Below, one piece after another: positions 51,230 through 55,365 of a stretch of 64,000 nucleotides of DNA. The position numbers and the translations under genes are program-made. The notes below the pieces were generated by a model. It saw only the letters and a program-made list of their open reading frames with translations. It ran no database searches and was not told where the DNA came from. The stretch is from Croceibacterium atlanticum. GTDB taxonomy: Bacteria > Pseudomonadota > Alphaproteobacteria > Sphingomonadales > Sphingomonadaceae. The DNA lies in NCBI RefSeq assembly GCF_001008165.2, contig NZ_CP011452.2, positions 248,001-312,000 on the forward strand, read 5' to 3'. Each line of letters starts with the position of its first letter. Within the stretch, counting starts at the first letter, position 1.

Positions 51230-52060
51230 TGACCGTCCTGGGATTGCCGGAGGCCATTTGGTTAAAATTATGCGGCCATGAGGGTGTCGTCAGCATGGCG
51301 TAGGAGCGCTCTCGGTTTCGGCAGGTGGGATCTTGCCGATGGGGGTGAGGAGCCGGCGGTTGTTGAACCAGTCGACCCATTCGAGCTTGGCGTATTCAAC
51401 GGCCTCAAAGAATCTGCACGGACCTCGCTGGAGGATCACCTCGGCCAAAGTGTTGCCGTAGCTGTCGCCTACGCTGTCCACCGATGGTTCGATCTCTGCG
51501 TCGGCAAGGCACCCAGTATTGTTTATCGAGACGTATTGGCTGCCACAGTCGCTGTAGTGGATTTGGTCACCGCGATGGACGGGCACCGATCAAGGATCGT
51601 TTGCTGAAGGGTATCTACACGAAGCTGGTGTGCGCCGTCGCGCTTACCCGCCAGCCTGCGATATAGTGGGCATAGTCGTCGAATACGAAGGTCACGTAAA
51701 CAAACCCTGCCATTTCGCGACATAAGTGAAGTCCGAGACCCACAGCATGTTTGGTACCGGCGGATGGAACTGGCGGTTGATCTGATCGAGCGGAGGCGGC
51801 GCGGCCTTATCGCTGAATGTCGTGCGCACCGGCTACTGCGGATCACGCCATGTAAGCCCAATTCGCCCATCAGCCGTTTCACCGTGCATCGAGCGATATC
51901 GAAGCCTTCGCGCCGTACCTGCTGAGTCGTGCCGATGCGCCACGCGCTCGTGATAGGTAGGTGGGGCGATCGGCAGAACTCGGTAGATCGGCTCGATCTT
52001 TTCCGTGATCGATCCACAACTGCAATTCGCGCCGACAAGAGTACTGCACGTTGTGGTACG
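51230..52060 (-). pseudogene. Degenerate IS3-family transposase remnant
   Basis: An IS3 orfB remnant on the minus strand. Traces of the N-terminal region IEPIYRVLPIAPPTYHERVA, then VRREGFDIARCTVKRLMGELGLHGVIR, lie in different frames. The second half reads IHYSDCGSQYVSI, IEPSVDSVGDSYGNTLAE (catalytic Glu region) and RRGPCRFFEAVEYAKLEWVDWFNNRRLLTPIG, ending MAA and a stop at 51268. Frameshifts and an internal deletion make it non-functional, and orfA is missing. The end at 51230 carries a TGACCGTCC-type terminal repeat. The other end stops close to the tRNA-Pro gene. Confidence 0.8.
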
Positions 52061-52098: not shown

Positions 52099-52175
52099 TG
52101 GTCGGGGAGAGAGGATTCGAACCTCCGGCCCCTGCCTCCCGAAGACAGTGCTCTACCAGGCTGAGCTACTCCCCG
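52099..52175 (-). tRNA. tRNA-Pro (CGG anticodon)
   Basis: The minus strand folds as a complete cloverleaf: 7-bp acceptor CGGGGAG/CTCCCCG, a D-arm with AGCCTGGTA loop, anticodon stem CTGTC/GGCAG with loop TTCGGGA (anticodon CGG, reading CCG), variable loop GGGCC, T-arm with TTCGAAT, discriminator A and an encoded CCA. The 3' end lies at 52099 and the 5' end at 52175, directly beside the IS3 remnant; tRNA genes commonly border genomic islands, and this one ends the exopolysaccharide locus. Confidence 0.95.
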
Positions 52176-52673: not shown

Positions 52674-53498
52674 ATGCGGTTTGCCCCTGGAAAAATTGTC
52701 CTAGCCCTCGTCATGGTGGTCGGCCTGGTTGTCGCCGGATACTTGCTTGTCTCGCCTCGAGAGAAACAGGTCAGCGTTATCAAGGTCGAGCCTGCCCCCG
52801 CGCAGCGCGTGCTTGCCGTGAACGGGCGTGTCCGGCCGCGATTGCAGGTCGATATTCGACCTTCCCTTGGGGGAGAGCTGGTTGCATTGCCAATCGATGT
52901 GGGCGACCGGGTCGAGGCCGGACAGATCATCGCCCGGATAGATGATGCGCCGGAAACCGCGGCTATTGCCGAAGCGGAAGCATCGGTCGAAGCGCAGCAA
53001 GCAATCAATGCCCAGGCCCGCCGCGATCTGCAGCGTTTCGAGGATCTGGGCCAATTTGCAACGAAGCGCGAAGTTGAACAGCGCCGACTGGAACTGGTGG
53101 AGGGCGAACGCGAATTGAGCCGCCGCCGGGCTGCCCTGGTACGGGCGCGAGAGTTGCGCGATCGCCGGGTGTTGCAGGCGCCATTCGCCGGGATCATCCT
53201 CGAGCGTCCTGTCGATCCGGGCCAGACTGTCGGGCTTGAGAGCATTGTCTATCGCCTGGCGGATCTGTCCAATCCGGAAATTACTGTCGAGGTGGACGAG
53301 GTCTATGCAGCTGAAATCCGCCCTGGGATGAAGGCTCTTGTCAGCCTGCCGGGCAAGCGGGGCCAATTATCCGCCCAGGTGGTGCATGTGGAACCACGCG
53401 TGGATCCGGCGACTGGCGCCCGCGATGTGCGCCTCGGTCTGGCAGGTGAAGCTGTTCCCCGTCAGCACCTATGGCACAGATTTGAGGTTGTGATTTAA
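52674..53498 (+). pseudogene. HlyD/RND-type periplasmic adaptor, 3' end cut off by IS insertion
   Basis: A membrane-fusion protein of the HlyD/MacA type. The N-terminal anchor is IVLALVMVVGLVVAGYLLV; a biotinyl-lipoyl-like domain follows (VNGRVRPRLQVDIRPSLGGELVALPIDVGDRVEAGQIIARIDD), then a coiled-coil hairpin, then VLQAPFAGIILERPVDPGQTVGL. Native sequence ends at base 53452, inside the beta-barrel/membrane-proximal part; the last 15 or so codons to 53498 are IS DNA. An RND or ABC partner would be expected downstream and is absent, so the product is probably non-functional. The likeliest start is ATG 52674; the open frame extends upstream without clear signals. Confidence 0.78.
53453..53481 (+). 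repeat. Left terminal inverted repeat of the IS3 element
   Basis: Begins TGTTCCCCGTCAGCAC and matches about two thirds of positions with the right end in inverted orientation over 29 bases. The adaptor gene stops being native here. Confidence 0.7.
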
Positions 53499-53537
53499 GG
53501 AGGATTTGGGTCTCGTCGTAGTGACGAAGGAACGAAG

Positions 53538-53924
53538 ATGAGACCCAAATCCTCCAATGCAAAATCGCGGACCAAGACCCCTGCGGAAGCTGTGGTGAAG
53601 GGCATCCGCCGGGCCACCCGGCGGCACTTCTCGGCGGAAGACAAGATCAGGATCGTGCTGGAAGGCTTGCGCGGCGATGACAGCATCGCCGAGCTGTGCC
53701 GCAAGGAAGGCATCGCCCAGAGCCTGTATTACACCTGGTCGAAGGAGTTCATGGAGGCCGGCAAGCGCCGCTTGGCTGGTGACACCGCCCGCGCTGCGAC
53801 CACAGATGAGGTGAAGGATCTGCGCCGGGAGACCGGCGCTTTGAAGGAGTGCGTCGCCGACCTGACGCTCGAGAACCGCCTGCTGAAAAAAAGCATTCTC
53901 GCGGATGGGGGCGACGACGAATGA
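53538..53924 (+). CDS. IS3-family transposase orfA
   Basis: A 128-residue helix-turn-helix protein typical of IS3 OrfA. RRHFSAEDKIRIVLEGLRGD starts the HTH domain (then SIAELCRKEGIAQSLYYTWSKEFMEAG), and a leucine-zipper-like end follows (LTLENRLLKKSI). It binds the IS ends and regulates transposition. A run of seven A (53886-53892) near its end is the likely site of the -1 frameshift that would fuse OrfA to OrfB. The stop overlaps the orfB start as ATGA. Confidence 0.88.
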   Translation: MRPKSSNAKSRTKTPAEAVVKGIRRATRRHFSAEDKIRIVLEGLRGDDSIAELCRKEGIAQSLYYTWSKEFMEAGKRRLAGDTARAATTDEVKDLRRETGALKECVADLTLENRLLKKSILADGGDDE

Positions 53925-54901
53925 GATATCCTGCATCCGAGAAGCTCGAGATCATCAGGATCGTCGAGCAGTCGCACCTGTCCGCCAAGCACACGCTGGA
54001 CCAGCTCGGCATCGCCCGCCGGACATTCTATCGCTGGTATGACCGCTACCTCCAAGGCGGGCCGGAAGCGTTGGAGGATCGGCCATCGGCACCGAGCCGG
54101 GTGTGGAACCGCATCGGCGAGGGCATCCAGGACCAGATCATCGAGATGGCGCTGGATCACAGTGAGCTGTCCCCGCGCGAGCTGGCCGTGCGCTTCACTG
54201 ACGAGAAGCGCTACTTCGTGTCCGAGGCCACGGTTTACCGCCTGTTGAAGGCCCACGACCTGATCACCAGCCCGGCCTATGTCGTGATCAAGGCTGCCGA
54301 TCAGTTCCACACCAAGACCACCCGGCCGAACGAGATGTGGCAGAGCGACTTTACCTACTTCAAGATCATCGGGTGGGGCTGGATGTATCTGTCGACCGTG
54401 CTCGACGACTTCTCGCGTTATATCATCGCCTGGAAGCTGTGCACCAACATGCGGGCCGAGGACGTGACCGACACGCTGGACCGCGCTCTGGCGGCTTCCG
54501 GCTGCGACAGCGCTACGGTGCTGCACAAGCCGCGCCTGCTAAGCGATAATGGCCCCAGCTATATCGCTGGCGAACTGGCGGAATACATCGAGGCCAACAA
54601 GATGAGCCACGTGCGCGGCGCCCCTTGCCATCCCCAGACCCAGGGTAAGATCGAGCGCTGGCACCAGACCCTGAAGAACCGCATCCTGCTGGAAAACTAC
54701 TTCCTGCCCGGCGACCTTGAGGACCAGATCGAAGCCTTCGTCGAGCACTACAACAACCAGCGTTACCACGAGAGCCTGAACAACGTGACGCCCGCCGACA
54801 CCTACTTCGGCAGGGCCCCAGCCATCATCAAACAGCGAGAAAGGATCAAGCGACAGACCATCGAGCATCGGCGCTTGCAACACCGCAAGCTCGCCGCCTA
54901 A
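53921..54901 (+). CDS. IS3-family transposase orfB (DDE integrase)
   Basis: A 326-residue DDE transposase from ATG 53921. The DDE residues lie in MWQSDFTYFKIIGWGWM, LLSDNGPSYIAGE and GKIERWHQTLKNRILLENY, with the expected spacing (the last two about 35 residues apart). An N-terminal HTH (SAKHTLDQLGIARRTFYRWYDRY) and the C-terminal EAFVEHYNNQRYHESLNNVTPADTYFG complete the IS3 pattern. No stops or frameshifts are seen, so the element should be able to transpose with OrfA or the OrfAB fusion. Confidence 0.9.
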   Translation: MRYPASEKLEIIRIVEQSHLSAKHTLDQLGIARRTFYRWYDRYLQGGPEALEDRPSAPSRVWNRIGEGIQDQIIEMALDHSELSPRELAVRFTDEKRYFVSEATVYRLLKAHDLITSPAYVVIKAADQFHTKTTRPNEMWQSDFTYFKIIGWGWMYLSTVLDDFSRYIIAWKLCTNMRAEDVTDTLDRALAASGCDSATVLHKPRLLSDNGPSYIAGELAEYIEANKMSHVRGAPCHPQTQGKIERWHQTLKNRILLENYFLPGDLEDQIEAFVEHYNNQRYHESLNNVTPADTYFGRAPAIIKQRERIKRQTIEHRRLQHRKLAA

Positions 54902-54936
54902 CATCAACCCCCAGACGAGGCCGACACTCCGCTAAT

Positions 54937-55365
54937 CTACGCCGCCAGTTGCGCCAAATGTTCTGACGACGGACACAGATCCTGGCGGGTCATGCTTGTC
55001 TGCAAATCCGCATCATTCATCATGCCTTCGCGTACGGTAAGGCCATCGACAGGCACGACCACGAAGCGATCGGGATTACTGTCTTCAATTTCGACAAGCA
55101 GCCCGGAAACTTCGCCTGCCGCGTCCCGCCGGATCTGCTCGACATCGCCGAGCTCCGTGCCATCTTCCGCCACCAGATCCGCATCCAGCAACTGACGTTC
55201 GGTAAGACCCAGCGCAACCACGGTATCTCCTGAAGCGGCCGCACTGGATTCAGCCTGCTGTTCCATCCGGTCTTCAGCGGCATCAAGCTGCCGCTCAGCC
55301 TCGGATTCGCATGCTGCAAGCGCGGCAAGTGCGAGCGGAGCCATGGCGTATCGCGTAAGTTTCAT
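54937..55365 (-). pseudogene. PRC-barrel-like lipoprotein, 3' end replaced by IS sequence
   Basis: A 142-residue reading frame whose N-terminus is a lipoprotein signal (MKLTRYAMAPLALAALAAC, lipobox Cys19). A short charged linker and a PRC-barrel-like domain follow: GLTERQLLDADLVAEDGTELGDVEQIRRDAAGEVSGLLVEI, then DRFVVVPVDGLTVREG. After TSMTRQDL the native sequence ends at 54976 and the last 13 residues are IS DNA, where related proteins would continue. The missing tail may be short, so the protein could retain activity. Such lipoproteins are common in sphingomonads and their role is unclear. Together with the adaptor gene on the other side, it marks a deletion junction. Confidence 0.7.
54947..54975 (-). 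repeat. Right terminal inverted repeat of the IS3 element
   Basis: Read on the minus strand it begins TGTCCGTCGTCAGAAC. It lies inside the lipoprotein gene, whose native sequence starts at 54976. Confidence 0.7.

Follow-up and report, generated by a model that had tools for sequence, protein, structure and literature searches.

The window, i.e. the whole 64,000-nucleotide stretch of the Croceibacterium atlanticum contig that was analysed, contains a genuine deletion scar associated with an insertion sequence (IS), at which a MacAB/LolCDE-like export module was destroyed; the event is of a known kind. Two genes are truncated at the IS ends, and neither the permease nor the adaptor tail is left anywhere in the genome. 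Because the corresponding operon is conserved in relatives, because permease and adaptor tail are gone and because the lipoprotein gene on the far side of the IS lies near that operon in no relative, a deletion at this IS that removed an ABC-type export module is well supported, and the module is dead in this genome. The reading preferred here, with a probability of roughly 0.7, is that an ISSsp2-like element inserted and that a deletion ending at the IS then took a quarter of hlyD at its 3' end along with the genes for permease and ATPase and further DNA up to the end of the lipoprotein gene. Within it, we infer the order of events, the length of the deletion, the mechanism and the loss of the ATPase gene. 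The features of the locus are as follows.

52674..53452, plus strand: truncated HlyD/RND-MFP-like periplasmic adaptor gene (Pfam PF13437 and PF16576; NCBIfam TIGR01730; homologue alignment)
53453..54975, plus strand: complete IS, ISSsp2-like, 1523 bp, one of five identical genomic copies
53453..53469, plus strand: left terminal inverted repeat, TGTTCCCCGTCAGCACC
53538..53924, plus strand: orfA, HTH_Tnp_1, IS3-type (PF01527; NCBIfam IS3 N-terminal part)
53886..53892, plus strand: A7 run, likely -1 frameshift site between orfA and orfB
53921..54901, plus strand: orfB, DDE transposase, rve (Pfam, NCBIfam)
54959..54975, minus strand: right terminal inverted repeat, TGTCCGTCGTCAGAACA on the minus strand
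54976..55365, minus strand: lipoprotein gene cut near its 3' end (ORF list, homologue alignment)

The ends of the IS were set by comparing the five genomic copies, which are 100% identical, and the same boundaries, 53453 and 54975, had been given in the first-pass annotation of this DNA. The inverted repeats, TGTTCCCCGTCAGCACC and TGTCCGTCGTCAGAACA, are imperfect. At the junctions ...GGTGAAGC runs into the left end of the IS and the right end runs into CAGATCCT..., with a match of 1 bp at most, so that the mismatched flanks and missing target duplication described earlier are upheld after exact end mapping. The frame of orfB is open backwards across the A7 run (ORF 53849-54901), and a -1 frameshift at that run likely joins orfA to orfB. 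The nearest elements, 88-91% identical, reside on sphingomonad and Roseomonas plasmids, and one of them is annotated as ISSsp2.

Assignment of the element to a family is mixed. An IS3-family two-ORF layout is present, comprising an overlapping orfA (HTH) and orfB (DDE) with a probable -1 frameshift, and OrfB scores above the cutoff of the NCBIfam IS3 model NF033516 (188.9 bits, cutoff 160). The top-scoring model for OrfB is that of IS481, at 211 bits slightly under its cutoff of 224, and on these scores the catalytic protein appears nearer IS481 than IS3. The IS481 family is defined by a single transposase ORF; the window element differs in carrying a separate IS3-type orfA. Target duplications are 3, 4 or 5 bp in IS3, depending on the subgroup, and span 2-15 bp in IS481 (PMC10045372). 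In the group of elements to which the window copy belongs, clear duplications are 7-8 bp, one copy has a 4-bp match and most have none. Since the IS3 model is passed and the duplications are unlike those of IS3, the window copy is best described as ISSsp2-like, with features of both IS3 and IS481. ISSsp2 itself (plasmid pCAR3; IS3 family per NCBI annotation) is 89% identical in DNA over the full length and has the same type of transposase, the difference being ordinary sequence divergence; a limited literature search found no published account of its target duplications.

To the left of the IS, 259 native codons of the HlyD-type adaptor remain, and alignment with intact homologues of about 343-351 aa places the loss at about 92 C-terminal codons, confirming the truncated adaptor reported at this flank. 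The frame of the stub is intact up to the IS end, with 75-79% identity to full-length relatives, and reads on inside the IS as far as the stop at 53498. No relative of the adaptor was found in viral contigs. Every relative with a complete locus displays the invariant order adaptor, permease, ATPase, the adaptors being 60-80% identical to that of the window, the permease 401 aa and of FtsX/MacB_PCD type, and the ATPase 228 aa and of LolD/MacB type. Complete loci comprise six of the seven close adaptor matches plus genomes of a second search; the regions overlap, and about a dozen independent genomes are represented. At the seventh close match, L031, the contig stops inside the permease. These operons resemble MacAB and LolCDE type ABC systems in pairing an adaptor with a MacB_PCD/FtsX permease and a LolD-like ATPase; they differ from MacB in that ATPase and permease are separate genes, and from MacAB/LolCDE in that the adaptor is nearest to RND-MFP models. 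Of such a MacAB-like operon the window has the adaptor stub alone. In one relative the hlyD-permease-ATPase operon is intact and has an IS of the same group (L032 14790-16228, the region of L172) about 4 kb downstream.

Genome-wide searches of the window's own genome found neither the permease (best match 30% identical) nor the adaptor tail (29% at best, in a different open frame of 405 aa), and neither is present elsewhere in the window or at the flanks of the other four IS copies. The search for the ATPase covered the window and the IS flanks, the family being too common for an informative genome-wide search. The partner transporter expected beside the adaptor is thus missing, as had been observed from the window, and is conserved at that position in relatives. 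The earlier reading of the locus as an IS-mediated deletion of an efflux system holds for the deletion of the rest of the adaptor-transporter operon, given the conserved order in relatives and the genome-wide loss of the permease. A drug-pump function, and a lost segment consisting of the transporter genes alone between adaptor and lipoprotein, go beyond these results.

To the right of the IS, the lipoprotein gene retains 130 native codons followed by 12 from the IS, with a stop at 54937. Intact homologues are 139-153 aa, and the window copy is short by about 11 residues of a variable tail; since only the tail is lost, the protein probably still folds and works. No Pfam hit was obtained for the window lipoprotein, and an intact homologue matched PRC-barrel PF05239 below the cutoff (E=0.03; 14.7 bits, cutoff 21.2). 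The description of this flank as a PRC-barrel lipoprotein cut near its end is therefore kept for the lipoprotein and the cut, the PRC label being weak. In no relative do the lipoprotein gene and the adaptor operon lie closer together than about 8 kb, and in one genome, G083, both are present on different contigs. Direct adjacency of the two genes in relatives, named beforehand as an observation that would speak against a deletion, was looked for and not seen in any relative. Sizing the deletion by conserved neighbours of the lipoprotein gene was dropped; these neighbours vary between relatives.

Target duplications were compared across 54 distinct mapped copies of the group, made up of 5 from the genome itself, 42 from other genomes of the family and 7 from a Roseomonas mucosa plasmid. 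The copies displaying clear duplications of 7-8 bp number four (L071, L093, L094 and L118), one further copy, L080, has a 4-bp match, and the remaining 49 have no duplication of at least 4 bp, i.e. about 90% of resident copies are without one. None of the five copies in the genome itself has a convincing duplication. As only about 0.005 matches of at least 7 bp are expected by chance among 47 copies, the long duplications are real. A 3-bp GTC match at L005 was rejected as a true duplication; it is probably due to chance, about 0.9 matches of at least 3 bp being expected and the clear duplications of the group being 7-8 bp. As a control, an IS3 element (L110:7574-8899) was mapped across these same genomes; both ends could be placed for 20 copies, of which 10 carry 3-bp duplications, a count made by eye with the ends of a few copies corrected. 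The two groups differ at Fisher p ~0.0004, the control copies being more diverged from their query (67-74% identity). Absence of duplication is a habit of the ISSsp2-like group and, being common to it, cannot single out the window copy; the missing duplication, taken earlier as specific evidence of a deletion, fails in that role. On the Roseomonas mucosa plasmid (NZ_CP025062.1, ~183-186 kb) the L118/L119 copy has the sole clear 8-bp duplication, GGTATCGT, which L118 retains while internally interrupted; the copy is interrupted by other DNA, as if inactivation had protected its flanks.

Other copies also lie between broken genes. Three further copies in the genome itself adjoin cut genes: a carbamoyltransferase and a TonB receptor, which have lost the N-terminus and the N-terminal half respectively, and two integrases from which the catalytic domain is gone. 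The copy within the region G000:C1:2655748-2660271 (L003) cuts a second carbamoyltransferase of ornithine/putrescine type, followed by a carbamate-kinase-like start; the missing N-terminal half is nowhere else in the genome, and a full-length member of the family lies at 2529866. Two copies on G000:C1, near 2693.6 kb (L002) and 1974.9 kb (L004), adjoin the tyrosine integrases that lack the catalytic domain, one of them beside a tRNA-Leu, an arrangement suggestive of islands that this IS has trimmed. On the Roseomonas plasmid the junctions join a glutaminase-like fragment to a solute-binding-protein fragment, and an MFS-transporter fragment to a dehydrogenase-like fragment; there and in other genomes such junctions were read by eye and as examples, not as a systematic count. 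Four genomes (L077, L078, L079 and L081) have the IS next to a gene that by eye resembles a multicopper oxidase, and the flanks are identical in all four, so that a shared mobile segment probably carries this copy. The many fragment-to-fragment junctions fit frequent adjacent deletions, and nearly every member of the group has the look of a scar left by deletion or rearrangement. Reciprocal exchange among the copies was considered and rejected: in the genome itself and on the Roseomonas mucosa plasmid no left flank pairs with the right flank of another copy beyond a 3-bp coincidence.

A sequence of events can be proposed in which an ISSsp2-like IS would have inserted near or in an accessory region. 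A deletion ending exactly at the IS would then have removed the 3' quarter of hlyD with the permease and ATPase genes of its operon, together with further DNA as far as the final codons of the lipoprotein gene. Of the possible routes, a transposase-mediated adjacent deletion (intramolecular transposition) would be the likeliest; it would keep one IS and leave no duplicated target. In the Lenski lines, none of the 14 deletion-associated events of IS150, an IS3-family element, showed a duplication, and adjacent deletion was the explanation given (PMC11708052). There too the IS is retained, flanking DNA is lost up to the IS end and no target duplication is present; the two cases differ in frequency, with about 17% of IS events there (14/83) associated with deletion, against about 90% of resident ISSsp2-like copies without a duplication.

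A two-step adjacent deletion, recombination of two direct copies and concurrent insertion and deletion leave an identical scar. If hlyD and the lipoprotein gene had each carried an IS copy, in direct orientation, homologous recombination between these copies could have looped out the intervening DNA; the five identical copies supply a template and the end product would be the same, mismatched flanks included. It requires, however, two independent insertions, both within genes and bracketing the lost segment, and the very high unduplicated share of the group would demand such pairs almost everywhere, so we regard it as improbable, though not negligible. Entry of the IS into a broken end, during a deletion of other cause, would involve no target cut and form no duplication. 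Such events have been proposed for IS5 and IS481 (PMC11708052), and the transposase here is IS481-like, but the 7-8 bp duplications at L071, L093, L094 and L118 indicate that ordinary target cutting occurs in the group, and this route is accordingly rated quite unlikely.

Adaptor and lipoprotein are absent from both congeners, the intact operon being found in other genera only, and no strain with a pre-deletion or intermediate state was found. A tRNA-Pro(CGG) lies at 52099-52175, next to the adaptor stub. In one congener (G002) what comes after this tRNA is a gene recognised by eye as thyA-like; the stretch beyond the tRNA-Pro is thus accessory in the window. Rebuilding the ancestral locus from congener synteny failed, the sequence to the right of 56.4 kb mapping to another place than the tRNA-Pro. 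Window positions 51312-51997 hold a degenerate remnant of a different IS3 element, matching G002:C1:449252-450071 at 70-86%, within a copy of the control IS3 element at G002:C1:449167-450487. The truncation could predate the arrival of the gene cluster. That the adaptor was acquired as a fragment, e.g. on an island next to the tRNA-Pro, and that the transporter was never in this lineage would agree with the missing adaptor in the congeners and with thyA after the same tRNA-Pro. It is nonetheless very unlikely, for a cut exactly at the IS end, in a frame still intact and 75-79% identical to full-length relatives, points to a recent cut at the window IS. An assembly error joining two IS copies is scarcely credible, for although short-read assembly can be misled by five identical copies of 1.5 kb, wrong joins would put the missing halves at other IS copies, where there are none, the permease is absent from a 99.99% complete two-contig assembly, and the same type of junction recurs in many independent assemblies.

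With insertion followed by a deletion at the IS end as the preferred account, the window locus alone adds one more gene loss caused by an IS, and the pattern across the group matters more. A broader and tentative proposal, which we consider possible but still doubtful, is that the ISSsp2-like lineage, combining an IS3-type OrfA with an IS481-like OrfB, makes 7-8 bp duplications on simple insertion and is so prone to adjacent deletion that almost all resident copies are scars of deletion or rearrangement, and that it is accordingly a major cause of accessory-gene loss in alphaproteobacteria. If the copies of this widespread group do nearly always stand at duplication-free junctions of unrelated genes, the group would shape genomes by deletion above insertion, and missing target duplications would be useless for singling out individual deletion events in it.
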